Positions 33,797 to 58,253 are shown, counted from the first letter of the stretch. The stretch is DNA of 64,000 nt from an uncultured Granulosicoccus sp. (GCA_937991945.1 CALKLO010000011.1:24344-88343), one strand, 5' to 3'. Made by a program: numbers and translations. Notes: generated by a model not told the origin, from the letters alone.

Positions 33797-33821
33797 TGCC
33801 AGTATTATCTGTATAGAAAAT

Positions 33822-35429: not shown

Positions 35430-36339
35430 CTTTTAAACCGCTTGAGGTGTGCAGGAACCAGTCGACCACAAAATTCACCGCCACCGTTAACAGTGCGATT
35501 GCCGCAGCAGGTAGTAATGGAGTCAGCCCAGCCTTGATATCGTACTGTGCAAATTGAATGAGTGATGCGTTCTCGCGGACCATGGATCCCCAATCAGCCG
35601 TTGGCGGTTGAATACCAACGCCCAAAAAGGATAAGGCGGCGATGGTTAAAAAAACAAACGAAAAGCGCAAACCAAATTCGGCAATAAGTGGCGGCATGAT
35701 GTTGGGCAGTATTTCCCGCCGCATAATCCAGCCGATTTTTTCTCCGCGCAACTTCGCGGCCTCTACGTAATCCATGACCACCACATTGATGGCAACAGCG
35801 CGTGTTAGTCGAAACACACGCGTGGAATCTAGTATCGCGATGATAACGATCAAACTCGTTACCGTAGAACCAAAAATAGACAGCAGCATCAATGCAAAAA
35901 TCAATGAAGGAATGGCCATCAAAACGTCAACCGCACGGCTTAGTATTTGATCCAACCAACTTCGATTAATGGCAGCGACTAGACCTAACCCGCCCCCTAT
36001 AGCAAACGATAACAACGTCGTTACAAAAGCAATACCCATGGTGTTGCGAGCACCGTAAATTAAACGGGTAAATATATCGCGTCCAATTTGATCTGTGCCA
36101 AATCGATGCGCCTCCTCCCAAGGACCAAACGGTGCGGGGAAAATCTCAGCCTCACCATAGGGCGCTAGTAGTGGTGCGAACAGCGCAACAACAATATAGG
36201 CACTGAGAACAATGAGACCGAACCACGCAGACACAGGCGCTTTTTTCAAAGCCAGCCAGATGCGTTCAAGTCGACCTCTACGTTTTCTTACAACGGCAAC
36301 TTCGGCTGCCGCTGCGTACGATTCTGGTGCCTCGTTCAT
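35419..36339 (-). CDS. Peptide ABC transporter permease (DppC-like)
   Basis: FGTDQIGRDIFTRLIYGARNTM; AAKLRGEKIGWIMRREILPNIMPPLI. Confidence 0.93.
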   Translation of the reverse strand: MNEAPESYAAAAEVAVVRKRRGRLERIWLALKKAPVSAWFGLIVLSAYIVVALFAPLLAPYGEAEIFPAPFGPWEEAHRFGTDQIGRDIFTRLIYGARNTMGIAFVTTLLSFAIGGGLGLVAAINRSWLDQILSRAVDVLMAIPSLIFALMLLSIFGSTVTSLIVIIAILDSTRVFRLTRAVAINVVVMDYVEAAKLRGEKIGWIMRREILPNIMPPLIAEFGLRFSFVFLTIAALSFLGVGIQPPTADWGSMVRENASLIQFAQYDIKAGLTPLLPAAAIALLTVAVNFVVDWFLHTSSGLKDEH

Positions 36340-37358
36340 CGTGGATGCAATAGCCTGGGGTTGGTGACTATGCCTATGACATCGGCAATGAGATTAAGCA
36401 CAATGTAGGTACTAGCGAATATCAACGCACAGGCTTGCACCACGGGTGTGTCTCGCGCAGTAACAGAATCGACCATAAGTTGACCTATGCCTGGGTAGAC
36501 AAATACAACCTCCACCACCACCACGCCCACAACCAAATACGCTAAGTTAAAGGCGATGACGGTTGCAATCGGTGCCCATGCGTTGGGAAGCGCATGCTTT
36601 AAAATAACTTCTGATCGAGAGGCACCTTTCAAAAGAGCCATTTCAATATAGGGGCTCGCTAACAAATTGATAATTGCAGCTCGCGTCATTCTCATCATGT
36701 GAGCCACGATAACCAATGTCAGTGTTATCGCTGGCAATGCAATGCGTCGCAGACGTTCGCCAAACTCCGTTGAGGCATCGACGTTGGCTAACGAAGGAAA
36801 AACAGGCCACAACGAGGACAGCAACAAAATCAAAATATAAGCGACGAAAAACTCTGGCATAGAAATGGTCGTTAACGTCAATGCGTTTACGCCTCTATCG
36901 TAGAGCGAGTTTCTATAGAGAGCGGCCGTTAAACCGATAAGCAGTGCTAACGGTACGGCTATGATCGCTGTGACCCCAGCTAGAAAAAGTGTGTTCTTCA
37001 GTCTCGGTGCTATTAACTCCGCCACTGATCGGGACCGATCAACTCCCGAGGCTGCTCGTCCTGAAAACGACGTGCCAAAGTCTCCTTTCAAGACTGAGGA
37101 CACCCAATCTAGGTATCGAACAGGTGCAGGTTTGTCGAGCCCAAGTTCTTTTCGAAACGCCGCGACCGTCTCAGTCGTGGCGGCTTGGCCCAGAACTGCT
37201 TCGCCAAAGTCACCAGGCAACAATGAAATTGAGCTAAAAATAATGGCCGAGACGACGAACAGTGTCGCAACGCCTAGTCCGAGTCGTTTCAATATTGTGG
37301 CAAGTACAGGGTGCAATATAATTCTTTTTCTCCGTAGTCCTTGTCTGAACAGCACCAA
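36336..37358 (-). CDS. Peptide ABC transporter permease (DppB-like)
   Basis: KRLGLGVATLFVVSAIIF, LKGASRSEVILKHALPNAWAPIATV, VVVEVVFVYPGIGQLMVDSV. Confidence 0.93.
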   Translation of the reverse strand: MVLFRQGLRRKRIILHPVLATILKRLGLGVATLFVVSAIIFSSISLLPGDFGEAVLGQAATTETVAAFRKELGLDKPAPVRYLDWVSSVLKGDFGTSFSGRAASGVDRSRSVAELIAPRLKNTLFLAGVTAIIAVPLALLIGLTAALYRNSLYDRGVNALTLTTISMPEFFVAYILILLLSSLWPVFPSLANVDASTEFGERLRRIALPAITLTLVIVAHMMRMTRAAIINLLASPYIEMALLKGASRSEVILKHALPNAWAPIATVIAFNLAYLVVGVVVVEVVFVYPGIGQLMVDSVTARDTPVVQACALIFASTYIVLNLIADVIGIVTNPRLLHPR

Positions 37359-37483
37359 TCTGGTGAAATGACGTCACAAGTATGGCAGTAAACGGATGCA
37401 CTTTTCCATAGTTAGTAAATTTTAGCCATAACAACGGGCGCCGCTTAGCGCCGCATAGCCACCGACTTAGAGGATTTTTCTTT

Positions 37484-39088
37484 ATGAAAAAGCACGTCAT
37501 TATCGATCAGGCCAACCAGCTAACTGCTGGCAGGATAAGCCGCCGACGTTTCATCATGACAGCTCTAGCCGCTGGAGCGAGCTTGCCGTTCGCTATGACA
37601 ATGGCCACAAACGCCATTGCCGCAACACCCAAAAAAGGTGGACGGCTTCGCCAAGGTTTGGGCTACGGCTCAACAACGGACACATTGGATCCAGGCACCT
37701 CTGAGAACGGCTTTACTCAGGCACTGAACTATACCTACGGAAATCAACTCACTGAAGTAGGTAGCGACGGTGCCTTACGCGCTGAATTGTGCGAAAGCTA
37801 TGAGCCTTCTGCAGATGCTAAAACATGGATGTTCAAACTGCGTAATGGCGTTGAATTTCACAATGGCAAGACACTAACCGCTGACGATGTTATTGCCACA
37901 TTCAATTACCATCGTGGTGAAGACTCTAAGTCTGCTGCAAAAGGGTTACTCAGTGCCATCAAAGATATTCGCAAAGACGGCGATGATATGGTTATCTTTG
38001 ACTTGGAAGATGGCAACGCCGATTTCCCGTTTATCGTTAGTGATTATCACCTGATCATTCAGGCTGCTAAAGATGGAAACATTGATGCGCTGTCAGGTAT
38101 CGGCACAGGTGGCTATGTGCTCGATTCATTTGAACCTGGCGTACGTGCTCTATCAACACGCAACCCCAACTACTTTAAAGCTGACAGCGCTCACTTTGAC
38201 GAAATCGAGTTACTTTCGATTCTAGATATTACGGCCCGACAAAATGCCGTCATGAATGGTGATGCAGATGTGGTCGACAACATTGATCCTAAAACTGTGT
38301 CGCTACTCGCTAGAGCACCGAACCTAGAGATTCTAGAAACCACAGGTACTCAGCACTACACATTTCCTATGCGACTAGACGTTGAACCGTTTGGAAACCG
38401 CGACTTACGCATGGCGCTTAAATACGCGATTAAACGTCAAGAACTAGTGGACAAGATACTACTAGGCCACGGTGTTGCTGGTAACGATATTCCTGTATCC
38501 GCCGCTATGCCTTTCCTCAATACAGATATTGAGCAAAGAGAATTTGACCCTGAAAAAGCGGCTGAGTATTACAAGGCATCTGGACACAGCGGCACCATTA
38601 AACTGTCAGCCTCTGATGCAGCCTTCGCAGGTGCAGTAGATGCCGCTCAGTTAATTGCAGCTTCTGCCAAGGAAGCCGGTATTGATATTGAAGTAGTTCG
38701 CGAACCAAAAGACGGCTACTGGTCAAACGTTTGGAATAAGAAAGGCTGGTGTGCCTGCTACTGGGGTGGCCGCCCTACTCAAGATTGGATGTACTCAGCT
38801 GCTTACACCAATGATACAGAGTGGAACGACACGGCTTGGAAAGGCACCGATGATTCCAAGCGCTTCAATGATGTCGTCGTGTCAGCCAGATCAGAAACTG
38901 ACGACGACGCACGCAAGACGCAATATGGCGAAGCACAGCAGCTGCTACATGACGATGGCGGTGCTATTGTCGCTATGTGGGCAAACTACATTCATGCGCA
39001 TTCTAAAGAGATCACCCATGGTGATAATGTGGCAGCGAATTGGGTTAACGACGGTAACAAAGTTGCCGAACGCTGGTGGTTTGCGTAA
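37484..39088 (+). CDS. Peptide ABC transporter substrate-binding protein (SBP_bac_5), Tat-type signal
   Basis: RISRRRFIMTALAAGASLP Tat motif; GVEFHNGKTLTADDVIATFNY. Confidence 0.93.
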   Translation: MKKHVIIDQANQLTAGRISRRRFIMTALAAGASLPFAMTMATNAIAATPKKGGRLRQGLGYGSTTDTLDPGTSENGFTQALNYTYGNQLTEVGSDGALRAELCESYEPSADAKTWMFKLRNGVEFHNGKTLTADDVIATFNYHRGEDSKSAAKGLLSAIKDIRKDGDDMVIFDLEDGNADFPFIVSDYHLIIQAAKDGNIDALSGIGTGGYVLDSFEPGVRALSTRNPNYFKADSAHFDEIELLSILDITARQNAVMNGDADVVDNIDPKTVSLLARAPNLEILETTGTQHYTFPMRLDVEPFGNRDLRMALKYAIKRQELVDKILLGHGVAGNDIPVSAAMPFLNTDIEQREFDPEKAAEYYKASGHSGTIKLSASDAAFAGAVDAAQLIAASAKEAGIDIEVVREPKDGYWSNVWNKKGWCACYWGGRPTQDWMYSAAYTNDTEWNDTAWKGTDDSKRFNDVVVSARSETDDDARKTQYGEAQQLLHDDGGAIVAMWANYIHAHSKEITHGDNVAANWVNDGNKVAERWWFA

Positions 39089-40023: not shown

Positions 40024-41301
40024 TTAGCTATAAATAGGAAAACGCTTAGTCAGAGCCATGACATCCGTTGCCACCGCTTTTTCTACTTCTGCATTACCTT
40101 CCTCGCCGTTTTGAGACAAGCCATCAAGAACACGCAAAATAAGCTGCCCAACTAACTTGAACTCTTCCTCACCGAAACCACGAGTTGTCGCAGCGGGTGT
40201 ACCTAAACGAACACCCGATGTAACGAACGGCGATGCAGGATCAAACGGAATGCTGTTTTTGTTGCACGTAATACAAGCACGACCCAAAGCTGCTTCAGCC
40301 GCTTTACCTGTTACGCCTTTAGGGCGTAAATCAACGAGCATGACGTGCGTGTCAGTACCACCAGAGACCATATCTAGTCCGCCCTCTGCCAGTGTTGCAG
40401 CCAACACCTTCGCATTGCTCACAACCGCTTTTTGGTAGGTTTTGAATTCTGGTTGTTGAGCTTCACCGAATGCAACTGCCTTTGCGGCAATGACGTGCAT
40501 TAATGGTCCGCCTTGCAAACCTGGGAATACCGCAGAATTAAACTTCTTACCCAATGCATCGTCACGAGTCAATATCATGCCGCCGCGTGGTCCGCGCAAA
40601 GTCTTGTGAGTGGTTGTCGTCACTACATGAGCATGATCTAGCGGATTAGGATGCTCTCCTGCCGCCACAAGACCTGAGAAATGCGCCATGTCGACCATGA
40701 AATACGCACCGACTTCATCAGCAATGGCTCTGAAACGTGCAAAATCTATAACACGAGGATAAGCTGAACCACCCGCGATGATTAACGCAGGCTTAGACTT
40801 ACGGGCCTGCGCCTCTAAGGCTTCGTAGTCGATTTGATGAGTGACTTCATCAACACCGTAAGTTACCGCATCGAACCATTTACCAGACTGATTGACCGGT
40901 GAACCGTGAGTTAGGTGACCACCCGCGGCTAAATCCATACCCATGAAAGTATCGCCAGGCTTGATTAACGCAAGAAATACAGCCTGGTTGGCCTGCGCGC
41001 CTGAATGCGGCTGCACATTAGCGTAAGAACAGTCGTACAACGCACAAGCTCGCTCGATGGCTAGGGTTTCTGCAGTATCGACGTGCTCGCAACCGCCGTA
41101 GTAACGCTTACCCGGGTAGCCTTCAGCATACTTATTGGTCATGACCGAGCCTTGTGCCTGCATGACAGCAGCTGACACGATGTTCTCGGACGCGATCAGT
41201 TCAATTTCATGTTGCTGACGGCCTAACTCGCTATCGATAGCCGCTTGAATAGCAGGGTCTCGATCAGCAAGATCAGACTTGAAAAAATCGGTAAGGCTCA
41301 T
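40024..41301 (-). CDS. glyA: Serine hydroxymethyltransferase
   Basis: [43 protein letters not shown]. Confidence 0.98.
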
Positions 41302-41412: not shown

Positions 41413-43947
41413 ATGCCATTGAATCGCCTAAAAACAGTTAGCGTGACCCAGTACGACGAAACCCTTGCTTTGGATGGCACCGAGCTGCCCAACTGGAAGC
41501 ACGTTACTGGGGAGCTGACGAGCCGGTCTGCTGAGCAAATACAGCAGCAACAAGCCAACATTGCCAGGCTCCTTAGAGCGAACGGTATCGCCTACAGCTC
41601 GTTGTCAGACGCTGAAGAATCCTCTCGGCCGTGGAATTTAGATCTGGCCCCCTTCGTCGTGGAACCCAAGGACTGGAGCTGGCTCAAGTCTGCTCTTGAT
41701 CAGCGGGCACGCCTTAAAGAAGCCATATTTGCTGATATTTACTCGGATCAACAGCTGCTTAAGTCCGGTTTGATACCCCCTGCCATGATCTACGCCCACC
41801 GTGGATATTTGCGCGATGCCGTCAACCCAAACACCACTCAAAAGTTGCCACTGTTTAGTTCAGATTTGGCTCGTACCAAAACAGGCAACTGGTATGTCGT
41901 AGACGACATTTGCCAATACCCAGAGGGCAGCGGCTACGCATTGGAAAACCGCTTAGCAATAACCCAGACCACGCCCAAATTATTTGGCTCCTCCCGTGTT
42001 CTGCGTATTGCCAGTTATTTTAAAAACATTCAACGCTATATCAGCGAATTGTCATCATCCGATGATCGCTGCGTTTTGCTGGCACCCGGCCCCACACACC
42101 CTCACTACTTTGAAATTGCCTACTTGGCAAAATACTTGGGCTACACATTGGTGCATACGGGAGATCTCACCGTTAGAGACAACCGGGTCTTTTTAAAAAC
42201 CGTGTCAGGCCTAGGACGCGTATCTGTCATATTCCGATTCGTTGACGATACCAACATCGACCCTTTGGCTATTGGACAAGCTAGTGCTCGTGGTATCACG
42301 GGGCTGTTTCAAGCGGTACGTGCTGGCGGTGTGAAGGTCATCAACCCACTCGGTGCTGGTGTACTTGAAAACCCTGCGCTCAACACGTGTTTGCCTGAGC
42401 TATGCGAAGAGCTATTAGGGGAATCGCTTAAACTCAATGGAGCTCCTACGTTCTGGTTAGGGGACTCCGAGCACCGAGATCACTTTAACAGTCATCGCCA
42501 AGACCTTCTAGTCACTGACGTCAACAATACAAACCTGTTGTTAGATCCACAGCGAATGAAAGGTGAGGATCTAGAACTACTGCTTAACAATATAGATCGA
42601 ACCCCCGAACGCTATGTGGCATTTGAGCGCATAGATAGATCAGTTGCGCCAAGTTTTCGCGGAACTGAACTAGTACCGCGAAAAATCACTATTCGTATGT
42701 ACGTGGTTAAACATGAGCAGTCCTATGAAGCACTACCCGGTGGGCTTTGTCTTCTTGACAGTGATGAGATAGGGCGCCGACCCACGTTTGAAACTGGCAT
42801 TGGTAGCAAAGACACGTGGGTTATTGCAGATGGCCCTATTAAACCGATCAGCCTACTCAATAACTCGGTTAATGCTAGTGATTTTTCTGTAGTCGACGGT
42901 GAATTACCCAGTCGTGTTGCAGAAAATTTGTTTTGGATGGGACGCAATGCAGAGCGCTGCGAAAAAACGCTTCGCCTCCTACGCGCGGTTCTTCAAACGC
43001 TGCGAACTAACACTCATCATTCAGCGAAGGAATTCCAAAACCCAACACTGGAAGCACTTCTGCGTGCAACGACACAAACAACTGGCACCGTACCCGGATT
43101 TATCGGGCGTGGTGCGAACAAACGATTGCAGTCACCTCAAAAAGAGCTGCTGTCGTTGCTCACCGATGTCAACCGAGCTGGCACTCTGCCCTACTCTCTG
43201 AAATCATTGTCACGCAGTGCTTCGGCCGTTAGAGATAGAGTGTCTACCGAGCTGTTACACGTATTAAATAAACTAGAAGACACCCGTTTATTTTTAACGC
43301 ACAAAATAAAAGCATCACCACTGCAAGAAGAAACAGGGGAGTTGGATTTAATATCAGGGCATCTGGATGACTCACTCATGACGTTGTCGGCATTTACTGG
43401 GCTAGCGCATGAAAATTTCTCCCACGGTGATGGGTGGCGTTTTATGATGTTAGGGCGACGACTAGAGCGTATTACCCACACGTCGTCCATCATCAACACG
43501 ATGCTATCCAGGCAACACGAAGACATAGAAATACTAGAAGCGTTATTAAAATTGTTCGACAGCAGCATGACCTACCGTAGTCGCTACCGTAGTCAATTTG
43601 ATGGGTACAATGTGCTTCGCTTGCTGCTGCTAGATGAGGACAACCCTCGCTCTCTAGCATTTCAATTTCGAGAAGTTGAAAAAGAGATCGCTCTGCTACC
43701 CGGGCGCCGCCGCATTCAACCCGGTGACCCGTTAGCGCGGCTAGCTTTTTCAGGGTTGAGCCGTATTCGGCTTGCAGACACGTACGCATTGATCAATGCC
43801 AAACGCGATGCCAGGCAAAGCTTACCTAAATTTTTAACCGTATTGGAAGGTCTGCCCAACAGCATGGCTGAAGTACTTAGTGCCACTTACTTCACACACG
43901 TGGAGTCCAGCCAGCAGTTGTCTGACATCCACCCAACAAAGCACTGA
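41413..43947 (+). CDS. Circularly permuted ATP-grasp (type 2) domain fused to C-terminal alpha-E domain
   Basis: 844 aa; N-terminal region collinear with the 44858-46345 ATP-grasp protein (RLKEAIFADIYSDQQLLKSGLIP, YVVDDICQYPEGSGYALENR, GIGSKDTWV); C-terminal ELPSRVAENLFWMGRNAERCEKTLRLLRAV. Confidence 0.88.
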   Translation: MPLNRLKTVSVTQYDETLALDGTELPNWKHVTGELTSRSAEQIQQQQANIARLLRANGIAYSSLSDAEESSRPWNLDLAPFVVEPKDWSWLKSALDQRARLKEAIFADIYSDQQLLKSGLIPPAMIYAHRGYLRDAVNPNTTQKLPLFSSDLARTKTGNWYVVDDICQYPEGSGYALENRLAITQTTPKLFGSSRVLRIASYFKNIQRYISELSSSDDRCVLLAPGPTHPHYFEIAYLAKYLGYTLVHTGDLTVRDNRVFLKTVSGLGRVSVIFRFVDDTNIDPLAIGQASARGITGLFQAVRAGGVKVINPLGAGVLENPALNTCLPELCEELLGESLKLNGAPTFWLGDSEHRDHFNSHRQDLLVTDVNNTNLLLDPQRMKGEDLELLLNNIDRTPERYVAFERIDRSVAPSFRGTELVPRKITIRMYVVKHEQSYEALPGGLCLLDSDEIGRRPTFETGIGSKDTWVIADGPIKPISLLNNSVNASDFSVVDGELPSRVAENLFWMGRNAERCEKTLRLLRAVLQTLRTNTHHSAKEFQNPTLEALLRATTQTTGTVPGFIGRGANKRLQSPQKELLSLLTDVNRAGTLPYSLKSLSRSASAVRDRVSTELLHVLNKLEDTRLFLTHKIKASPLQEETGELDLISGHLDDSLMTLSAFTGLAHENFSHGDGWRFMMLGRRLERITHTSSIINTMLSRQHEDIEILEALLKLFDSSMTYRSRYRSQFDGYNVLRLLLLDEDNPRSLAFQFREVEKEIALLPGRRRIQPGDPLARLAFSGLSRIRLADTYALINAKRDARQSLPKFLTVLEGLPNSMAEVLSATYFTHVESSQQLSDIHPTKH

Positions 43948-43959
43948 GGTGTCACGATC

Positions 43960-44889
43960 ATGAAACTACAGGTAAGACACCGCACCCATTATGACTACGC
44001 AAGCCCAGCCAGCTTATCCAACAATCATATTTGCCTGCAGCCGCGAGACACGCCAAACCAACAATGTTTGAACAGCCGTGTTGATGTTAATCCAGAACCT
44101 AAATCTATTGACTACCAACAAGATGTCTTCGGTAACAATGTCCTGCAGTTTAATTTAAGCCGACACCACAATCAGTGCGAAATTATTGTCACCTCGTTGG
44201 TAGAAACGGCAGACATCGTGTCAACGCTTCCCGAGTCACTGAAACAAGCTGACAATATCGCTCGTATAAAGCAACTAAAAAACAACGATGCCCTGATGGC
44301 TGTCGAGTGTTTGCTGCCATCGCCCTACATTCAGCCAACTCAAACTCAAGATCACTATATAAAAGAGATACCGCTCACCACACAAACCGTGATTGAGTAC
44401 TCAAACGAACTCATGTCTCATATATTCAACACGTTTGAATACCAATCAGGCTTCTCCACACTGATAACGCCATTGAGTGAAATTTATGCGGCGCGCAAAG
44501 GCGTTTGTCAAGATTTTGCGCACTTGGCAATCAGTGTTCTTAGACGTCAAGGCATACCTGCGCGCTATGTAAGCGGTTACTTAGAAACATTGCCACCACC
44601 CGGTCAAACAAAGCTACAAGGCGCTGACGCATCACATGCATGGTTCTCAGTATTTGACGCAGATAACGGCTGGTTTGACTTCGATCCAACTAACAATAAA
44701 CGCCCTGATAAGCAATATATTACGACGGCTTGGGGACGTGATTACGGAGATGTCGCACCAGTGAAAGGAGTCGTGTATGGTGGTGGAAAGCACTCACTTA
44801 CAGTAGAGGTTGATGTCAATCGAACAGGCAATACAACCCTAAGTCAAACGGAGCCAAATGTTTATGCCAGGTCGGTGGACAAACTATAA
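43960..44889 (+). CDS. Transglutaminase-family protein (Bact_transglu_N plus transglutaminase core)
   Basis: MKLQVRHRTHYDYASPASLSNNHICLQPR; catalytic GVCQDFAHL, ASHAWFSVF, FDFDPTNN. Confidence 0.92.
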   Translation: MKLQVRHRTHYDYASPASLSNNHICLQPRDTPNQQCLNSRVDVNPEPKSIDYQQDVFGNNVLQFNLSRHHNQCEIIVTSLVETADIVSTLPESLKQADNIARIKQLKNNDALMAVECLLPSPYIQPTQTQDHYIKEIPLTTQTVIEYSNELMSHIFNTFEYQSGFSTLITPLSEIYAARKGVCQDFAHLAISVLRRQGIPARYVSGYLETLPPPGQTKLQGADASHAWFSVFDADNGWFDFDPTNNKRPDKQYITTAWGRDYGDVAPVKGVVYGGGKHSLTVEVDVNRTGNTTLSQTEPNVYARSVDKL

Positions 44890-46345
44890 AAGCGCTAGTT
44901 TTGATGAGCTCATTGACAACAACGGTACCCCCAGACCTGCAGCTGAAAAGTTAGCCCGTTGGTTCGACACGCTAAGCACCGAAGACTTAGAACTTCGCGA
45001 AACAGCCGCCAAGCTTGCTATACAACAGATGGGCATCACGTTCACTGTTTACTCTGACAAAGGCAACATCGATCGAGAATGGCCCCTCGATATCATCCCA
45101 AGAATTATAGATGCACAAGAATGGAGCGGTGTTGAGAACGGCCTCAAGCAGAGACTAAAAGCTCTCAACTTATTCATTGATGATATCTACAACGATCAAC
45201 GCATCCTTAACGAGAATATTGTTCCTAGAGCACTAATCGAATCATCTGCCAATTTTCGAAGTGAATGTAAAGGCATCAAACCAGCACACAATGTGTGGGC
45301 TAATATCTGCGGCACCGATTTAGTACGAAGTGAAGACGGCACGCTCTACGTATTGGAGGACAACCTACGGGTACCCTCGGGCGTCTCCTACATGATCGAA
45401 AACCGCGAGGTTATGAAACGCGTCATGCCAGAGGTATTCCGCGAATGCCACATTCAACCGGTCGACAACTACACCAGTGATCTGCACCAGATGCTGTGCT
45501 CTTTAACAGAGCAACCCGACCCAACACTGTGCGTACTAACCCCGGGTGTATTCAACTCTGCTTATTTTGAACACTGCTTTTTGGCTCAAGAAATTGGTGC
45601 TGAATTGGTTGAGGGCCGTGATCTTTTCGTCGCTGATGACGGTTACGTGTACATGAGAAATGTCGGTGATAAACAACGAGTCGATGTCATCTATCGCCGC
45701 GTAGACGACGAATTCTTAGATCCCGATTGTTTCAACCCAGCCTCCACGTTGGGTGTACGTGGGCTTATCAAGGCCTGGAAATCAGGCAAGGTCGCTATAG
45801 CCAATGCACCGGGTGCAGGCGTTGCTGACGACAAAGTCATTTATTCCTACGTGCCCGACATCATTCGCTACTACCTCAATGAAGAACCCCTCATTGCGAA
45901 TGTCCCCACATATCGTTGTGAGAACATTGAAGAACGCAACTATGTCCTAGACAACCTGCCCTCATTGGTTGTTAAACCAGCCAATGAATCGGGTGGATAC
46001 GGCATGCTTATCGGGCCTCAAAGCACACCCGAGGAGCAAGCTGACATGGCTGAGAATATAAAAAACAACCCGAGAAACTATATAGGCCAGCCCACCTTGA
46101 GTTTGTCTACCGTTCCGACTCTAAGCGATTCTGACATAGAAGCGAGGCACATTGATCTTCGACCTTTCGTGCTTCAAGGTTCCGATATTTCTGTCACTAC
46201 CGGAGGGCTCACTCGGGTGGCGCTTGTGAAAGGCTCGCTGGTTGTTAACTCATCGCAAGGCGGTGGCAGTAAAGACACATGGGTGGTTCATTGCGATGAT
46301 GCGCCAAAGAGCTCCAGCTCGCAGCAATCACAGCAGCAATCCTGA
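44858..46345 (+). CDS. Circularly permuted type 2 ATP-grasp protein
   Basis: NLFIDDIYNDQRIL, LYVLEDNLRVPSGVSYMIENR, LVVKPANESGGYGMLIGP, RHIDLRPFVL, GGLTRVALVKGSLVVNSSQGGGSKDTWV. Confidence 0.94.
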   Translation: MFMPGRWTNYKSASFDELIDNNGTPRPAAEKLARWFDTLSTEDLELRETAAKLAIQQMGITFTVYSDKGNIDREWPLDIIPRIIDAQEWSGVENGLKQRLKALNLFIDDIYNDQRILNENIVPRALIESSANFRSECKGIKPAHNVWANICGTDLVRSEDGTLYVLEDNLRVPSGVSYMIENREVMKRVMPEVFRECHIQPVDNYTSDLHQMLCSLTEQPDPTLCVLTPGVFNSAYFEHCFLAQEIGAELVEGRDLFVADDGYVYMRNVGDKQRVDVIYRRVDDEFLDPDCFNPASTLGVRGLIKAWKSGKVAIANAPGAGVADDKVIYSYVPDIIRYYLNEEPLIANVPTYRCENIEERNYVLDNLPSLVVKPANESGGYGMLIGPQSTPEEQADMAENIKNNPRNYIGQPTLSLSTVPTLSDSDIEARHIDLRPFVLQGSDISVTTGGLTRVALVKGSLVVNSSQGGGSKDTWVVHCDDAPKSSSSQQSQQQS

Positions 46346-46357
46346 GGAACGTTATTT

Positions 46358-47314
46358 ATGCTAGCTCGTGTTGCCGAAAATATTTACTGGCTGAGTCGCT
46401 ATTTTGAACGTGCGGAAAACAACGTACGTTTAATCAATGCACACAGTAATTTACTCATGGACTTACCGTTGGTAGACGACCACGACGGTTGGATGCCACT
46501 CATCTCAATTAATGGACAAGATGACGAATTCTCTGAAAAGTATCTCAGTGCAAATGAGCAAAACGTCGTCCATTTTTTACTCGCTGACAAATCGAACTCA
46601 AGCTCATTAATTAATGCCTTCTTTGCCATCAAAGGTAACTTACGTTCTTGCCGAGATGTAGTCCCTAAAAACGTCTTCGAAGACATCAATAGCCTATGTC
46701 GCATGGTCATAGAGAATATCGATAGCTCATTGTCTTCACCTTCGCAAAGACAGGCTTTTCTTCGCACCATTGAAAGCAGACTGCAGGCCATAGCCAGTGG
46801 CTTGAATTGTAATATGTGCCACGATTTAGGCTATTTGTTAATGCGCATGGGTTGTTACCTAGAACGCGCTGACATGACATCACGCATTATCGATGTGCAA
46901 TCAACACGATTATCTGCGGTTAACACAGCCCCTGAAATAATGGCCATACAAGCGCAACGCTGGGTATCTGTATTGCGTTCATTGGCTGCTAACCAAATGT
47001 TTCGACAACACGTTCGGCGCCCAGTGAATGGCCCTGATACCTTGACGTTTTTATTGCTCAATACACGGCTGCCTCGTTCCTACTCATTTTGCCTAGATCA
47101 TCTTGAGCAATGCGTAAAAGCGCTGAAAAACCCTGAGCATGTCATAGCGGCTATTGGGACATTACAAGACAAATTAAAGTCGGCTAACTTTACAACGCTT
47201 GCTCGCGACCCAGTGGGGCTTCATGATTTTCTGGACGAGCTACAACTTGGCATGCTGAACGTTAGCGCCGCAATCTCCACCACCTATTTCCCGCCCCTAC
47301 AGGATTCGGAATGA
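46358..47314 (+). CDS. Alpha-E domain protein
   Basis: MLARVAENIYWLSRYFERAENNVRLINAHSNLLMDL; Y-LERADMTSRIID. Confidence 0.93.
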   Translation: MLARVAENIYWLSRYFERAENNVRLINAHSNLLMDLPLVDDHDGWMPLISINGQDDEFSEKYLSANEQNVVHFLLADKSNSSSLINAFFAIKGNLRSCRDVVPKNVFEDINSLCRMVIENIDSSLSSPSQRQAFLRTIESRLQAIASGLNCNMCHDLGYLLMRMGCYLERADMTSRIIDVQSTRLSAVNTAPEIMAIQAQRWVSVLRSLAANQMFRQHVRRPVNGPDTLTFLLLNTRLPRSYSFCLDHLEQCVKALKNPEHVIAAIGTLQDKLKSANFTTLARDPVGLHDFLDELQLGMLNVSAAISTTYFPPLQDSE

Positions 47315-50300
47315 GCATTCGCATTGCGATAGACCACACCACCGTCTATACGTATGACAAACCCGTCAGCCTGGACCCGCATATCATTCGCCTCAGGCCG
47401 GCGCCGCACTGTAGAACACCCATTTTAAGCTACAGTCTGAAAGTTGAACCTTCTACTCACTTTCTTAACTGGCAACAGGACCCGTTCGGCAATTACCTTG
47501 CGCGACTGGTTTTCCCTGAGAAATGCAAACAACTGTCGGTAACCGTCGATCTGGTGGCAGAGCTCACCGTCATTAACCCATTTGATTTCTTCGTTGAAGA
47601 ATCAGCCGAAACCTTCCCGTTTGAATATAGCGCCGTGAATAGGCAAGAGCTGTCGCCATACCTTGAGGTTGGTGATGCCTCACCCATATTAGCCGCGTGG
47701 CTTACACACAATACGCCTGAAAAAATACGCTGCATCGATGCGTTGGTGGCCATCAACCAAGCGGTTCATCGCGATGTGGCTTATCAGCTTCGCATGGAAC
47801 CCGGCGTACAAAGCAGTGAAGATACGCTAACGCTGGCAAAAGGCTCCTGTCGCGATAGTGGCTGGTTGCTAGTAGAAGTATTAAGGCACATGGGGCTTGC
47901 CGCCCGATTTGTCTCTGGATATCTCGTACAGCTAACACCGGATGTAAAGTCCATTGATGGCCCTGTCGGCGCCGAAGCTGACTTTACCGATCTTCACGCA
48001 TGGGCAGAAGTCTATCTACCTGGCGCTGGCTGGGTAGGCCTTGATCCAACCTCAGGACTTTTCGCAGGTGAAGGGCACATACCCCTAGCTTGCACACCTC
48101 AACCGGTCAGTGCCGCTCCCATCAGTGGCAGTGCTAGTGGTGTAGCCGACGATTTCTATTTCCATAATCGTGTGAGTCGCTTTGACGAACGCCCGAGAGT
48201 CACACTGCCCTACGATGAGAAACAATGGGGACGCATCCTGACACTGGGTGAACAGGTTGATACTAAACTTGAGCAGCAAGATGTTCGTTTAACCATGGGT
48301 GGGGAACCCACGTTTGTATCCGTTGATGATGTGGAAAGCCCCGAATGGAACACCGCCGCATTAGGTGAGCAAAAACTAGAGCGTGCAGGCGTCTTGTTGC
48401 ACAAACTCCGCGATGCGTTCGCACCCAACGGCGTTGTTGCCTACGCACAAGGCAAATGGTATCCAGGTGAACCCACACCAAGATGGGCGTTAATTTGTCA
48501 TTGGCGCACTGATAATAAACCTATCTGGAAAGACCCCAGCCGTCTGAGTACGCCAGGCATAGACAAAGCCGACAAAAGTGATGCACTCAATTTTATGCGT
48601 CATTTGTGTGCTGAATTGCAGCTGGATAGCTCCTACATTAAAGCCTTGCATGAAGACCCGCTTCACCATCTTCATCTTGAATCCATGCTGCCTGATGCTA
48701 CATCCCTTGATTCTCTCAACTTAAAAGACAGCAGTGCTCGGCGTCACTTAGTGAATCAGTTATCTGAAGGCATAGACGAACCTGTCGGGTACATGTTGCC
48801 GCTAACCCATATAGCAATGAAAGATGCCTACTGGAAAAGTAGTGAATGGCCTTTGCGCCGCGAAGAAGTCTTTCTCATGCCTGGTGATTCACCTGCAGGT
48901 TTAAGACTGCCATTAGCATCGCTACCTGACAGCGACAGTGTCGACGATGAAGCGAATAGCGTGCTTGCCGATATCTTTGACCCAGCAAGCCCCTTACCCA
49001 CTCCCGGTGAATCAAGATCACACAAAAAAATCGGCGCTCGAGGCTCTGATGACACGGTTGTTCGCACCACATTGTGTGCAGAAATCAGGGACGGCTCTTT
49101 ATATATATTCATGCCGCCACTGCAAAGTGCTGAAAGCTGGGTGCAGCTCATGGCAAGCATTGAATACGCAAGCATTCGCGCCAACGTACAGCCCGTGCTC
49201 GAAGGGTATGAGCCTCCTAGAGACCCTCGTCTTCAATCGTTCAGAATCACCCCTGACCCAGGCGTCATTGAAGTCAACATACATCCTTCGGGAAGCTTTT
49301 CTGATCTGGTCAACCGCACAGAAACCATTTACGAAGCCGCTAGAGAATCTCGTCTCGGCGCTGAAAAATTCATGGTTGACGGAAGACACACGGGCACCGG
49401 TGGCGGCAACCACGTGACACTTGGCGGTTCCACACCTGCCGATAGCCCTTTCTTACGACGCCCTGATTTATTACGCAGCCTGATCACTTTTTGGCAACAC
49501 CACCCTAGCCTGTCCTATTTGTTTTCTGGCATGTTCGTGGGACCAACCAGCCAAGCACCGCGTATCGATGAAGCACGTAATGAGTCTTTGTACGAGCTAG
49601 AAATGGCTCTATCCAGACTGCCTACTGGCGAAAGCGATAAACCGTGGTTGGTTGATCGCTTGCTGCGCAATCTACTTATCGACTTAACCGGCAACACACA
49701 TCGAACTGAAATTTGTATCGACAAACTCTATTCCCCGGACGGCCCCGCTGGGCGACTAGGTATCGTGGAACTCAGAGCGTTTGAGATGCCGCCACATGCT
49801 CGAATGAGTGTTGTACAGGCGCTATTAATTCGTTGCTTAGTCAGCCGATTTTGGGATAAGCCTTACACCGGCAAATTAGTCCGCTGGGGCACCGAATTGC
49901 ACGATCGATTTATGTTGCCTCATTACTTGTGGCAAGACATTAATGAAGTCATCAATGATCTTAAAGAGCATGGCTTTGACTTTGATCCAAGCTGGCTTGA
50001 TGCATTTTGGGAGTTTCGTTTCCCTGTTTTTGGTGTGCGTCAAATCGACGGTATCAGCTTGGAAGTTAGAGCAGCCATTGAACCTTGGCATGTACTAGGA
50101 GAAGAAGCAGCCGCAGGCGGTTTAGCACGGTATGTAGATTCTTCGGTTGAACGAGTACAACTTAAGGTCAGTGGCCTGACAGATAATCGTTACAAGGTCA
50201 CTTGCAATGGCTGTGCACTCCCACTGAGAAAAACCGAAACAGCAGGCGAATATATTGTTGGTGTGCGCTATCGCGCTTGGCAGCCCACGTTTGCTCTTCA

Positions 50301-50631
50301 CCCTGACCTACCAGTCGATGCCCCATTAGTGTTCGATGTCATCGATACGTGGACTAATCGAAGCCTAGGCGGCTGCGCTTATCACGTCTCAGACCCTGGT
50401 GGCAGAAGCTATGAGGATGTTCCTGTTAATGCCAATGTGGCTGAATCCAGACGATTAGCTCGGTTTGATGACCACCATACACCGGCAAAAGCTGCAATCA
50501 GAAACCCGGCGAACACGCCAGAAACGACGTTTGTAGCAACACAGGCTTCTGAGAATATTAACGTTAGCGAGGAGCTTCTAGAAAACCCTGAATATCCGTG
50601 TACGGCAGATTTACGTCAACGCTATCGTTAA
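47311..50631 (+). CDS. Transglutaminase-like N-terminal domain fused to DUF2126 (predicted amide-ligase-type domain)
   Basis: IRIAIDHTTVYTYDKPVSLDPHIIRLRPAPHCRTPI; GSCRDSGWLL, DLHAWAEVYLPGAGW; DVRLTMGGEPTFVSVDD, AYAQGKWYPGEPTPRWAL, GRLGIVELRAFEMPPHARMS. Confidence 0.93.
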   Translation: MSIRIAIDHTTVYTYDKPVSLDPHIIRLRPAPHCRTPILSYSLKVEPSTHFLNWQQDPFGNYLARLVFPEKCKQLSVTVDLVAELTVINPFDFFVEESAETFPFEYSAVNRQELSPYLEVGDASPILAAWLTHNTPEKIRCIDALVAINQAVHRDVAYQLRMEPGVQSSEDTLTLAKGSCRDSGWLLVEVLRHMGLAARFVSGYLVQLTPDVKSIDGPVGAEADFTDLHAWAEVYLPGAGWVGLDPTSGLFAGEGHIPLACTPQPVSAAPISGSASGVADDFYFHNRVSRFDERPRVTLPYDEKQWGRILTLGEQVDTKLEQQDVRLTMGGEPTFVSVDDVESPEWNTAALGEQKLERAGVLLHKLRDAFAPNGVVAYAQGKWYPGEPTPRWALICHWRTDNKPIWKDPSRLSTPGIDKADKSDALNFMRHLCAELQLDSSYIKALHEDPLHHLHLESMLPDATSLDSLNLKDSSARRHLVNQLSEGIDEPVGYMLPLTHIAMKDAYWKSSEWPLRREEVFLMPGDSPAGLRLPLASLPDSDSVDDEANSVLADIFDPASPLPTPGESRSHKKIGARGSDDTVVRTTLCAEIRDGSLYIFMPPLQSAESWVQLMASIEYASIRANVQPVLEGYEPPRDPRLQSFRITPDPGVIEVNIHPSGSFSDLVNRTETIYEAARESRLGAEKFMVDGRHTGTGGGNHVTLGGSTPADSPFLRRPDLLRSLITFWQHHPSLSYLFSGMFVGPTSQAPRIDEARNESLYELEMALSRLPTGESDKPWLVDRLLRNLLIDLTGNTHRTEICIDKLYSPDGPAGRLGIVELRAFEMPPHARMSVVQALLIRCLVSRFWDKPYTGKLVRWGTELHDRFMLPHYLWQDINEVINDLKEHGFDFDPSWLDAFWEFRFPVFGVRQIDGISLEVRAAIEPWHVLGEEAAAGGLARYVDSSVERVQLKVSGLTDNRYKVTCNGCALPLRKTETAGEYIVGVRYRAWQPTFALHPDLPVDAPLVFDVIDTWTNRSLGGCAYHVSDPGGRSYEDVPVNANVAESRRLARFDDHHTPAKAAIRNPANTPETTFVATQASENINVSEELLENPEYPCTADLRQRYR

Positions 50632-52388: not shown

Positions 52389-54608
52389 TTAGCCGATTGG
52401 CAGCGACAAACCCACATGAACCCAGCTTTTTTGATCGTGCGTGAGTTGGTTGCGGGCAAATACAGCACCCTCGTGCGCCTCAGCGATCATTTTCACAATG
52501 TAGAGGCCAAGGCCCAGATGCAATTCGCTGCCTTGATCTTGCCGCTCTGAGAACATCGGAGCAAACCACAGTTCGGTATCACCGACCGCTTCCACATCGG
52601 CTTGATTGGCAACTCCGAGCAAGACATGAGGAATAGCCGATTTATCGTCAGTGCTCAGGTGTAGCACGATGGGACCGGCACTTGCGAATCCCACCGCGTT
52701 GTCCACTAGCTTATCAAACGCCTGCTGTAACAACTCAGGTGAGGCCGTCACGGCAACCGGTGCCGCAGGTAGCGTACTTAAGCGAAATTCATGCGTTGGA
52801 TAGACTTGCCGGTAGCGCTGTAATGAGCCAGATATCCAATCGGTTAAATCAATAGATTGTTTGTCCGCTAACTGAACGCTTTGCTCTAAACGCGTTGATT
52901 CAACCAACGCCTTAATAATGGAACCCAAATGATTAGCACCGTCACTTGCACGATCTACAAGCTGTAGTGATTGCTCATCGAGTGCATCGCGGTCCAGGTT
53001 CTCAAGCGATGTACGAACCACGGATAGCGGTGTGCGAAGCTCATGTGAAAGACGGCTCGACAGTGCTTCTAAATACTGCGTGTAGGCTGCAGAGCGTGAA
53101 AGCAATGATGATAACTTTCGCGACAAATCTCCAATTTCATCTTGAGCGTCGCTTTCAGTTAAACCTGTAACTCGACCATTGTCGGCAATCGCATGTTGAG
53201 CTTCTTGAGACAAACGCCTTATGCGCGATGAGAGTACGAAAGCAAAAATCAGTAGTCCACTACCCGCAAGTAAGCTGACCATTAACAGCAGACTAAACAA
53301 GCGAGCCATCTCACTCCCGGCATAGGCTGATGCGTGTTCTTCATTGGCCTCAAACAGCAGATACCCTCGGCGTGGCAACGAGCCAATCGGTGCGAGTGTT
53401 CCTAAGACCCGATCATTTTCGTCGGTCACATAACGCGATGTCATCGGTTCATCAGCAACCACGGTATCGCGACGCTCTGCACTTAACTTTAAATCGACCG
53501 GCGTGCTTCTCGTTTCAGGTAGCAACGGCAAGTCGCCAGCAACAAAAAATGCGAACAGTCTTAATAGGATGGCATCCCAGAGCCCTGAACTGTTTTCGGC
53601 CTGAGCGGTGGCTTCATCAGAGGCATCGTATTTGACGTAAAGATTGTCGACGTCAGCCATTAAACGCCCATGTACATCAAACAAGCGTGCTCTGACTCCA
53701 GGGCTAGTCCAACGCTGAAGATACGCTTGCGCCGAGGCACTATTATAAAAAAGCAGGCCACCTTGACTAGAAAGGTCGTCTTCCTGAATCGCCCTCATGG
53801 TGCTCGGCGACACAGTTCCTGCCCAGGAAACTCGACGCTCCCCTGGGGCATCAACATCGATAACCGCAATATCAATCGGTGCGCCACTAGAGGGCAACGG
53901 CAATTTAACCTCGAGATAATATCCGTTGGTATCAGTCACCCATGCGCCATGCCAGCCCGGTATTGCCACACCCGCAGAATCTACATAGCGGCGACCCGCA
54001 TTCCTTTGTATGGCTTGCAGGCCAGTTAAAGGGCCAGGAGCTATAGGACGAAACAATACATGCCGCCAATCTCCAGCCGGGGTTTGCGTCAGTATTTCTA
54101 TGGAGTCACCATTGACTAATAATGATTCTGGATCTGGTCGTTCATTTTCACCGGCATCAGGTCTTAGCGCCAGTGGTGTGTGATAAACAACTTGATCATC
54201 TTTAACGTGTATAAACAAATACAAGTTATTGGATTTCTTTGCCACGCGCACCGACACAGTTAAATCATCTGTAACCGTCAGTGACTCAACACTATCGGGC
54301 AGTACGTATTGAAATGTCTCTTCGTTAAGCTCTTGCCAATCATCAGCATAGCCATCAACAAACATAGGGTACTTCGATGCTTGAGCGTACCAATCGTTTT
54401 TACCGGCGGTGCTCAACCCAGTAATCAAGGCTGCATTCACATTGTCTGCATCGGCAAGAGCCAATCGCATATTGGCAACTTTCAGCGTCTGTTCGTCAAT
54501 ACGTGTTTTCTGTAAGGCGCTATAAACCTGTTTGACACTTTGCAAACCCACAACAGGTACAGCCAGCGTCAAAGCGCCAGCTAGTAACATTTGGGAACGC
54601 AGTTTCAT
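52389..54608 (-). CDS. pdsS: Proteobacterial dedicated sortase system histidine kinase
   Basis: Large extracytoplasmic region; H-box SRLSHELRTPLSVVRTSLENL, N-box QAFDKLVDNAVGFA, LGLGLYIVKMIAEAHEG; adjacent to RR, VIT/VWA target and sortase. Confidence 0.85.
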   Translation of the reverse strand: MKLRSQMLLAGALTLAVPVVGLQSVKQVYSALQKTRIDEQTLKVANMRLALADADNVNAALITGLSTAGKNDWYAQASKYPMFVDGYADDWQELNEETFQYVLPDSVESLTVTDDLTVSVRVAKKSNNLYLFIHVKDDQVVYHTPLALRPDAGENERPDPESLLVNGDSIEILTQTPAGDWRHVLFRPIAPGPLTGLQAIQRNAGRRYVDSAGVAIPGWHGAWVTDTNGYYLEVKLPLPSSGAPIDIAVIDVDAPGERRVSWAGTVSPSTMRAIQEDDLSSQGGLLFYNSASAQAYLQRWTSPGVRARLFDVHGRLMADVDNLYVKYDASDEATAQAENSSGLWDAILLRLFAFFVAGDLPLLPETRSTPVDLKLSAERRDTVVADEPMTSRYVTDENDRVLGTLAPIGSLPRRGYLLFEANEEHASAYAGSEMARLFSLLLMVSLLAGSGLLIFAFVLSSRIRRLSQEAQHAIADNGRVTGLTESDAQDEIGDLSRKLSSLLSRSAAYTQYLEALSSRLSHELRTPLSVVRTSLENLDRDALDEQSLQLVDRASDGANHLGSIIKALVESTRLEQSVQLADKQSIDLTDWISGSLQRYRQVYPTHEFRLSTLPAAPVAVTASPELLQQAFDKLVDNAVGFASAGPIVLHLSTDDKSAIPHVLLGVANQADVEAVGDTELWFAPMFSERQDQGSELHLGLGLYIVKMIAEAHEGAVFARNQLTHDQKSWVHVGLSLPIG

Positions 54609-54666
54609 CCGTTTAAACGAGTCGTTTGTGTAGGCAATTTGATAGAACTAAGTGCACAGTGTGTGT

Positions 54667-55383
54667 CTAGTACAACAGTTCATCCATCCAGCGGTATCCC
54701 AGACCATACACCGTCTGAATACCACTGAAGGCATTATCCATTATTAAGAATTTTGCGCGTATGCGCTTGATATGCGCCGTAATGGTTTGATCGTCCAATA
54801 CAAGGTTTGCTGCATCCATAAGTTGTTGCCGGCTTCTCACTTGACCCGGGTTACGAGCAAGGCTTTCTACTAAGGCATACTCCGTAACGGTTAAATCAAC
54901 AACTTCATTACGCCATTTAGCCACTAAGCGTTGTTGGTTGAGTTCAAGCTGTCCAACGTTTCGAATTGTTTCAGCCACATCCGGTTGGCTAAACGCTTCG
55001 ACACGCCGCAGTACCGTATTTACTCTAGCGACTAACTGAACCAAACTGATGTCTTTCGTCAAGTAATCGTCAGCACCAAGCCGCAAACCCGATATGACGT
55101 CTAGTTCGCTATCTCGAGCGGTTAAAAATAAGATGGGCAACCTGGCTGATATCTCTCGAAGTGCGCGGCATAAATCAAAGCCTGCCTCACTATCGCGGCC
55201 TAAACCAATATCAATGATGGCGACATCAGGAAGCCTTTGCTTAACAGCTACCAATGCTGACGAAGCATCCGGATAACCGTGTACATCAAAGCCTGCACGG
55301 CTCAACGCCAACGTGTAGTTATCACGCAATGCTGGTTCGTCCTCAACTAGCACGATGCGTCTAAGTGGGTTCTGCTCCGTCAT
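54667..55383 (-). CDS. pdsR: Proteobacterial dedicated sortase system response regulator (OmpR-like)
   Basis: RIVLVEDEPALRDNY, VAIIDIGLG, LTARDSELDVISGLRLGADDYLTKDIS, C-terminal winged helix; next to kinase and sortase genes. Confidence 0.88.
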   Translation of the reverse strand: MTEQNPLRRIVLVEDEPALRDNYTLALSRAGFDVHGYPDASSALVAVKQRLPDVAIIDIGLGRDSEAGFDLCRALREISARLPILFLTARDSELDVISGLRLGADDYLTKDISLVQLVARVNTVLRRVEAFSQPDVAETIRNVGQLELNQQRLVAKWRNEVVDLTVTEYALVESLARNPGQVRSRQQLMDAANLVLDDQTITAHIKRIRAKFLIMDNAFSGIQTVYGLGYRWMDELLY

Positions 55384-55486
55384 ATTTCGTCACAATTCAT
55401 CCGAGTTTAACCACACTTTATCGCCGTAATGTCCTAAGCGAGGCGCCTACTGTGGCCAACCTTACCGCAACTCTTACGCCACGACT

Positions 55487-57610
55487 ATGCATGATACTCA
55501 CAGCACGCCCTGTTCGCACAAACAACCTCTTATCTTGTTTGTATACGTAGTCGTCAAACATTGGACACTGGTCAGTGTGTTAGTCCTGAGCCTGCACTTG
55601 AGTTCCAGCTTAGCTAATGCCTCAGAGACTGACGACCACCCTACAGCCGGATCACTAAAGCTTCACCATCCAGATGGTGATATCGAGGCCATACAGCTCG
55701 ACGCCGACATGAATCTACATGTCACAGGCCTACTGGCAGAGTTAACCCTTAGCCAGACATTCCAAAACACGACTAATGAATGGGTCGAGGCCAGTTATTT
55801 GTTTCCATTGCATGAGGAGTCTGCCGTACAGGGCCTGAACATGCTCATAGGAGAACGCAAAATTGTCGCGCAAATTATGCCCACCGCTGAGGCCAACGCG
55901 ACCTACGAAAAAGCAAAGCGTGCAGGTCAGATAGCCAGCCTTGTCGAGCAACACCGGCCCAATTTATTCACGATGAAAGCGACGTCCATCGCCCCAAACG
56001 ATATCGTAAAAGTACAGCTGAGTATTATCCTACCGGTACAGGTGGTCGATAAAAAAATGCAGATGCGACTGCCCACCACACTAACACCACGTTATTCCAA
56101 TGCAAACACACCAAACCCGGCAACCATAGATTCAACGTTTACTCAGCAATCTGTGAGTAGAGGGCCACAAATTAGCATAAGCGCTACCTTTGAAACACGT
56201 GAAAACCGTAGCGCCGTCAGCAGCCAAACTCACGAACTACAACACACTGAACAGGGTTTTACGATACGTTCAGTTCCGATGGATCGTGATCTTGTTTTCG
56301 AATGGCCAATGGCCACGACAGATTTTACTACCAGTCAGGCTTACGTATCGACTCACAACGGTGATCGCTACGCACAAATCATAGTGACGCCTCCAGCACG
56401 TACAAACTCGATAGAAAATACCGCTCGAGAATTGTTGTTGGTTATTGATAAATCGGGCTCTATGGCAGGTGTCTCTATGGATGCAGCGAGGCAAGCTTTG
56501 CATTTTGCCATTGATGGATTGAAGCATCACGATAGGTTCAATATCGTCGCCTTCGATGATGAGTACTACCCGCTTTTCGACCGATCAAAAAAGGTATCTG
56601 ATCGCACGACTCAACAAGCCCGACGCTTTATCGATTCGCTAGTCGCTGACGGCGGTACAGAGATGCAGTCAGCCCTTGAATTTGCGCTGAATACAGAGAG
56701 CGATAATCGAATGGACATTGCTGACACTGCAAATGTACCAACGCTTCGACAAGTCGTTTTTCTAACCGACGGCAGTGTGGGTTACGAAGAGTCACTACTG
56801 AACACGATCCAACAACAATTGGGTAGGAGTCGTCTATTTACTATCGGCATTGGCCCTGCTCCCAATTCCTGGTTTATTAAAAAGGCTGCGCAGATTGGTC
56901 GTGGCACATCGCTTGAGATACAAAATTCATACGATGTAGCAGAGGCTGTCAACCAGCTCTTAGGCAAGCTTGAATCACCGGTGCTGACTGATATAACCGT
57001 TCAATACCCCGAAGGTTATGGCGAAATATACCCTAGCCACCTACCCGATTTGTACGCTGACAGACCTGGACTTTGGGTATCGCGTATTAGTGATGACGTT
57101 AACAGCATCATTGTTACAGGCACTCAAAATGGTCAAAGAATTCGTCAAACGCTAGCAATCGTAGACCCGTTAGCCGATGACGTTCAACCAACACAGACTG
57201 ACAGGCACTCACCGGCGGTTGCTATTCACTGGGCACGCAAAAAAATATCTAGCCTGCTGGATGAACAACGGTATTCACACGATACGCAATTGCACAAAGA
57301 CACCGTGACAGCCCTAGCGATGGACATCGGTTTAGTTTCACCCTATACCAGTTTTTTGGCCATCGACACGACGCACAGTAAACCTGCTGCGAGTACTCAG
57401 AACACGCACACCGTGGCAAATCTTATTCCGGCAGGCAACACCATGATGGCAGTTGTATTACCACAAGGTTCGGCAGGTGCTGACTCTTTCATGGTGTTGA
57501 GTTTACTGAGTGCGCTGCTCGGTATTATCTTATTAAAACTCTCTCGCAACACTGCGGGTGCAAAACGTCGCAGCTCACCCCTGCGCAATCACCTGCAGCC
57601 GTTAGCATGA
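55487..57610 (+). CDS. VIT plus VWA domain protein, marine proteobacterial sortase target
   Basis: VIT: ELTLSQTFQNTTNEWVEASYLFPL; VWA MIDAS: LLLVIDKSGSMAG; C-terminal LPQGSAG-hydrophobic helix-KLSRN..KRR; start could be at a later codon. Confidence 0.92.
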   Translation: MHDTHSTPCSHKQPLILFVYVVVKHWTLVSVLVLSLHLSSSLANASETDDHPTAGSLKLHHPDGDIEAIQLDADMNLHVTGLLAELTLSQTFQNTTNEWVEASYLFPLHEESAVQGLNMLIGERKIVAQIMPTAEANATYEKAKRAGQIASLVEQHRPNLFTMKATSIAPNDIVKVQLSIILPVQVVDKKMQMRLPTTLTPRYSNANTPNPATIDSTFTQQSVSRGPQISISATFETRENRSAVSSQTHELQHTEQGFTIRSVPMDRDLVFEWPMATTDFTTSQAYVSTHNGDRYAQIIVTPPARTNSIENTARELLLVIDKSGSMAGVSMDAARQALHFAIDGLKHHDRFNIVAFDDEYYPLFDRSKKVSDRTTQQARRFIDSLVADGGTEMQSALEFALNTESDNRMDIADTANVPTLRQVVFLTDGSVGYEESLLNTIQQQLGRSRLFTIGIGPAPNSWFIKKAAQIGRGTSLEIQNSYDVAEAVNQLLGKLESPVLTDITVQYPEGYGEIYPSHLPDLYADRPGLWVSRISDDVNSIIVTGTQNGQRIRQTLAIVDPLADDVQPTQTDRHSPAVAIHWARKKISSLLDEQRYSHDTQLHKDTVTALAMDIGLVSPYTSFLAIDTTHSKPAASTQNTHTVANLIPAGNTMMAVVLPQGSAGADSFMVLSLLSALLGIILLKLSRNTAGAKRRSSPLRNHLQPLA

Positions 57611-58197: not shown

Positions 58198-58253
58198 CCC
58201 AACAAGGGGCTCTTGCCAGCCCGATTTTCAGGGCAAGCAGGTATACTTCGACA

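Follow-up and report, generated by a model that had tools for sequence, protein, structure and literature searches.

Two widespread modules joined in a five-gene ATP-grasp, Alpha-E, transglutaminase and DUF2126 cluster of an uncultured Granulosicoccus sp.: a predicted amide-ligase system with a putative pseudo-ATP-grasp

Five consecutive genes at positions 41413-50631 of a 64,000-nucleotide stretch of DNA from an uncultured Granulosicoccus sp. (the window, with positions counted from its first letter) are two widespread modules placed together, rather than an unusual five-gene invention. Module A consists of a transglutaminase (TG)-DUF2126 fusion, a fused pseudo-ATP-grasp-Alpha-E protein and a TG, which travel as a set across taxa. 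Module B consists of an active ATP-grasp and an Alpha-E protein, often accompanied by a TG and Anbu. In the window, both modules are joined in a single run. The system is of a known kind, represented in the Anbu-operon and amidoligase literature, and it is common. Our preferred reading, to which we assign a probability of roughly 0.4, is that of a cytoplasmic amide-ligase system of two joined modules, in which the first protein would be a non-catalytic partner and the TG domains would reverse the bond.

The five open reading frames, P1 to P5, are all located on the plus strand, and the P1-P2, P2-P3, P3-P4 and P4-P5 junctions measure about +12, -32, +12 and -4 bases, respectively. Therefore, the short gaps or overlaps and the operon-like layout described in the sequence-only reading, which was made without database searches, are borne out with junctions of -32 to +12 bases. 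P1 (41413-43947) is a fusion of a pseudo-ATP-grasp (CP_ATPgrasp_2, aa 80-446, 361 bits) and an Alpha-E domain (aa 498-827, 230 bits), as assigned with Pfam, AlphaFold2 and Foldseek. P2 (43960-44889) is a transglutaminase-like thiol enzyme (Bact_transglu_N, 88 bits; Transglut_core, 70 bits), whose Cys-His-Asp triad lies in the conserved motifs GVCQD, HAW and FDPTN. P3 (44858-46345) is a standalone CP-ATP-grasp ligase with intact catalytic motifs (CP_ATPgrasp_2, 533 bits; match to PDB 3n6x with E 1.6e-153), the start codon of which is uncertain, and its overlap with P2 is 32 bases. P4 (46358-47314) is a standalone Alpha-E protein (Pfam, 247 bits), and P5 (47311-50631) is a transglutaminase (aa 1-275; Bact_transglu_N, 95 bits; Transglut_core, 62 bits) fused to a DUF2126 carboxylate-amine ligase-like domain (1210 bits), as assigned with Pfam and Foldseek. 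All these Pfam scores are far over the gathering cut-offs, and the searches support the family names proposed earlier, that is, CP_ATPgrasp_2, Alpha-E, Bact_transglu_N and DUF2126. The NCBIfam search gave no match for any of the five proteins, and the Rfam and tRNA scans returned nothing. According to a whole-genome search, the cluster copies of Alpha-E, CP_ATPgrasp and Bact_transglu_N are the only ones in the genome. At least 10 further genomes of the genus share the order P1-P2-P3-P4-P5, as does part of the family.

The ATP-grasp, Alpha-E and TG modules had each been counted twice in the cluster, which holds for Alpha-E and TG but not for the ATP-grasp: the P1 copy has lost its catalytic motifs, so that the cluster holds two unlike ATP-grasp modules. 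P1 and P3 were aligned with homologues and PDB 3n6x. P3 displays the motifs EDNLR (45356-45370, with the predicted Mg2+ ligands), ADDK (45824-45835), the ATP-binding loop KPANESGGYG (45974-46003, with the K...GGYG pattern) and NSSQGGG. By analogy with glutathionylspermidine synthetase, we take EDN to be the metal ligands and the K/GGYG loop to be ATP-binding. At the corresponding places, P1 has DDICQ instead of EDNLR (41902-41916), with loss of the predicted metal ligands, LENP instead of ADDK (42364-42375), and VTDVNNT (42511-42531), where the KPANESGGYG loop is lost with a three-residue deletion; all these motifs are on the plus strand.

The same split is seen family-wide in contexts drawn from 20 related genomes, 40 more across the phylum and 80 named GTDB records. 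Judged by aligned columns, the key catalytic residues are absent from 103 of 104 fused homologues. In P3 numbering, the fused proteins (n = 103) keep E167 in 2%, N169 in 0%, D324 in 2%, K326 in 1% and G382 in 4% of cases, whereas each of these sites is kept at 99-100% in the standalone homologues (n = 76). The scaffold control positions R183 and W475 are conserved at no less than 0.98 in both sets. The former catalytic positions of the fused proteins are non-random, with Gln at the R171 position (93/103) and Glu at the D324 position (91/103). In the phylogenetic tree, fused and standalone ATP-grasps are separated by a single branch with support of 1.0, and the fused homologues without the catalytic residues form one clade. 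Note that six standalone sequences flagged by regular expressions as loop- or ADDK-negative were set aside as mostly pattern artefacts (e.g. GAGGYG), since the aligned columns show the residues. The single exception among the 104 is a separate fusion of an active-type ATP-grasp to its Alpha-E in locus L051, and it therefore supports the physical pairing of P3 and P4. This fusion is located at 7534-10170 on the plus strand of the locus, where the usual dead fusion is present too.

The dN/dS value of the dead ATP-grasp domain within the genus is 0.037-0.045, close to the values of P3 and P5. Such purifying selection argues for a conserved pseudoenzyme, and, as far as sequences can tell, the P1 ATP-grasp looks like one with a remodelled site rather than a product of decay. 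The residue loss predicts a lack of activity, short of proof. The inactive fused ATP-grasp may already have been noted by Iyer et al. 2009; what is added here is that the two ATP-grasps differ in this way family-wide, and that the sigma-54 signal described below is broad.

The AlphaFold2 model of P1 (pLDDT 84) matched 3n6x best in Foldseek (TM 0.82), followed by homoglutathione synthetase 3kal (TM 0.64), and further matches included eukaryotic and plant glutathione synthetases and glutathionylspermidine synthetase. The modelled ATP-grasp fold of P1 is thus that of a eukaryotic-type glutathione synthetase, and the model is silent on the ligand of P1. For Alpha-E, there was no solved homologue of P4 by sequence and no match with a significant Foldseek score in the P1 model. 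The N-terminal part of the P5 model (pLDDT 74) matched the papain-like 3isr and TgpA. Both P2 and P5 have an intact transglutaminase triad: C180, H229 and D245 of P5 are 100% conserved in 60 sequences, and the GVCQD/HAW/DPTN triad motifs of P2 are conserved in 47 sequences. The DUF2126 domain matched glutamine synthetases with a Foldseek probability of 0.9-0.99 and an E-value of about 0.01, which is a weak match to a model with pLDDT of 74. It agrees with a published study in which the Rv2566 family was assigned to the carboxylate-amine ligases (PMC2588565). In DUF2126, GGEPT is invariant among 60 sequences, that is, the first Glu of the GhExE signature (PMC2588565) is kept and the second position is Thr; consequently, the catalytic competence of the domain is unproven. 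The name DUF2126 itself was not found in papers by the literature search.

In the preferred reading, P3 with its eukaryotic-glutathione-synthetase-like fold would act together with P4, activating a carboxylate with ATP and joining an amine to it. The putatively glutamine-synthetase-like DUF2126 domain of P5 would form a second bond, probably gamma-glutamyl or isopeptide. P1, a paralogue of P3+P4 that has putatively lost catalysis, would serve as scaffold, substrate holder or regulator for P5 and P2. In P2 and P5, the transglutaminase-type domains would cleave or exchange the bond made, and the modification would therefore be reversible. The original function may have been one in nitrogen stress. 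ATP hydrolysis, measured as phosphate release, has been reported for the ATP-grasp of the Yersinia Anbu operon (PMC6376114). In a bolder version, possible but on the unlikely side, the fused protein would be an ancient, family-wide pseudo-ATP-grasp with a remodelled site that a two-ligase route akin to glutathione synthesis needs as a non-catalytic subunit; by this route, a large share of Gram-negative bacteria would make a new nitrogen-stress metabolite or protein mark.

The nitrogen component of this proposal comes from the relatives. Sigma-54-like sites were found at 31 of 48 heads of standalone ATP-grasp genes and at 20 of 106 DUF2126 heads, compared with 31 of 644 neighbouring control genes (Fisher p 1e-24 and 4e-6, respectively); these p-values are nominal, because the loci are related to one another and the score weights were set by hand after the known consensus. 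At a fixed threshold, the sites occur at 24/48 ATP-grasp heads on the coding strand versus 3/48 on the reverse strand. NtrC-like palindromes with no more than one mismatch are enriched too (13/47 ATP-grasp heads and 14/105 DUF2126 heads versus 19/635 controls). In P. putida, nitrogen limitation induces the Anbu/TG/Alpha-E/ATP-grasp operon PP_2685-2688 (PMC7801951, PMC3325844, PMC8050072), and in B. cenocepacia the genes I35_5080-83, encoding ATP-grasp, Alpha-E, TG and a large TG protein, are NtrC/sigma-54 dependent (PMC5491218). Nitrogen limitation thus probably switches the system on via sigma-54/NtrC in most relatives. At the head of the window's cluster, however, no sigma-54 site was found (score 0.70, shuffle p 0.43), both site types are absent from all cluster heads of its genus (0/12), and the window-wide scan for the sigma-54 consensus gave no signal (45 matches versus 47 expected). 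Consequently, the nitrogen link may fail in this organism, despite the presence of rpoN, encoding sigma-54, in the genome.

The promoters could also be read in terms of nitrogen scavenging, in which the ligases would attach a gamma-glutamyl group to a nitrogen compound, an amine or an amide, for catabolism and the thiol enzymes would be hydrolases. Ligase-initiated amine catabolism has a precedent in PuuA/PuuD. Membership of the NtrC regulon alongside urea and polyamine transport genes (PMC5491218) and, in marine metagenomes, a correlation with domains of urea metabolism (PMC3597751) agree with scavenging as well. We nevertheless regard it as quite unlikely, given the promoters missing from the window's genus and the lack of any consistently linked oxidase, dehydrogenase or transporter among the neighbours surveyed.

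The distribution of the two modules bears on whether the five genes make a product of their own. DUF2126 is present in 129 of 397 sampled Pseudomonadota genomes, among which 123 carry at least two CP-ATP-grasps and none (0/129) carries zero copies; among the DUF2126-negative genomes, 94 have one copy, 12 have two and 162 have none (Fisher p 9e-80). Judging from these copy numbers, module A behaves like an add-on to module B. The system also occurs in records from Bacteroidota, Nitrospirota and Verrucomicrobiota. A dedicated peptide natural product, ribosomal (RiPP) or non-ribosomal, is therefore highly improbable as the output of the cluster. It is true that ATP-grasp ligases make known peptides, e.g. 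graspetides (PMC8939145), and that a precursor might sit at a distant site. But no precursor-peptide ORF had been noticed between the genes, and indeed the gaps are too small to hold one, no recurrent precursor-like family is linked among neighbouring ORFs of at least 100 aa, and such a product accords poorly with strong purifying selection and with a system occurring in a third of the sampled Pseudomonadota and in three further phyla. Occurrence over many orders and several phyla, strong purifying selection and the nitrogen-control-type promoters of relatives speak for a role in housekeeping or stress physiology and against a bespoke peptide. The general prediction of an amide-forming system made in the sequence-only reading is supported as a prediction.

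The neighbours bring in protein tagging, in which the ligases would add a peptide or glutamate tag to proteins, to be removed or broken down by the transglutaminases or, in relatives, by Anbu; such a scheme has been suggested for the Anbu operon. Among the linked families that recur, Anbu is the commonest (19 loci), and 10 loci have a zinc metallopeptidase, Peptidase_Mx, which may replace Anbu there. In addition, one study groups DUF2126 with the Pup ligase PafA in a single superfamily (PMC2588565). However, Anbu was not found in the window's genome (97% complete), where the single proteasome-family match is HslV, and Peptidase_Mx had no match there, although the control genomes gave none either. 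No Pup-like ORF is present in the cluster. Anbu showed neither peptidase activity nor binding of operon partners in vitro, and the Yersinia operon proteins failed to co-purify with it (PMC6376114). Tagging is therefore unlikely in our view, and we retain the reversible amide-ligase system as the preferred reading.

Several further features were observed in these neighbourhoods. Peptidase_Mx with a zinc ribbon adjoins the module in L096, L101, L105, L115, L132, L153, L159, L161, L166 and L187, and in L136 and L154 two Anbu genes lie next to one DUF2126 module. In the window, a divergent SHMT gene (40024-41301) lies about 110 bases upstream of the cluster, as it does in most of the genus; SHMT is also located near the Halioglobus loci L126 and L139. 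SHMT was considered as a functional partner and taken as synteny instead, because the genome has no other SHMT gene and the adjacency is mostly confined to the genus. A convergent ABC transporter is located downstream of the cluster. The region 52389-57610 encodes a histidine kinase, a response regulator and a VIT/VWA protein, a set similar to the proteobacterial dedicated sortase system (TIGR03785 scores 388 bits, under the cut-off of 612), and there may be a sortase gene at about 57611-58254. On the other side of the cluster, at 31754-39088, an X-Pro dipeptidyl-peptidase S15 gene lies by a divergent oligopeptide-type ABC transporter with an SBP_bac_5 binding protein.

The family is found in about a third of the sampled Pseudomonadota. 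The residue split could guide assays, with P3 and DUF2126 as enzymes and P1 as partner, and the sigma-54/NtrC signal in relatives suggests looking under nitrogen limitation in tractable hosts such as Pseudomonas putida.

Among known systems, the Rlo operon of P. aeruginosa (RloA/B/C; PMC12239564) is alike in combining an ATP-grasp with an inactive transglutaminase in a stress-related operon, but its RloC is RimK-like, the transglutaminase is the dead partner, and no Alpha-E or DUF2126 has been reported in it. The predicted fold combination resembles that of glutathione or glutathionylspermidine synthesis by a GCS2-type ligase with a eukaryotic-type glutathione synthetase or GspS: a putative GS-like ligase, a permuted ATP-grasp ligase and a thiol amidase-like fold come together in a similar way, whereas sequence identity to those enzymes is about 10-14% and Alpha-E and transglutaminase have no counterpart there. 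CP-ATP-grasp/Alpha-E/transglutaminase amidoligase systems were reportedly described by Iyer et al. 2009, and the window has their traits in the catalytic residues of P3 and the adjacent Alpha-E and transglutaminase genes. The Anbu operon (PMC5666114, PMC6376114) shares the CP-ATP-grasp, Alpha-E and transglutaminase families, with intact motifs as in P3/P4; the window differs in its genome without Anbu, its extra TG-DUF2126 and pseudo-ATP-grasp-Alpha-E genes and its lack of a sigma-54 site. Finally, the module of TG-DUF2126, fused ATP-grasp-Alpha-E and TG in Pseudomonas (L163) and Burkholderia (L186), with its Rv2566-type TG-ligase fusion, contains the same three proteins, and its fused ATP-grasp is motif-free in other bacteria too. 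In the window, P1 and P2 lead the run, followed by the active pair P3-P4 and then by P5, an arrangement that, among the loci examined, belongs to this genus and family only.
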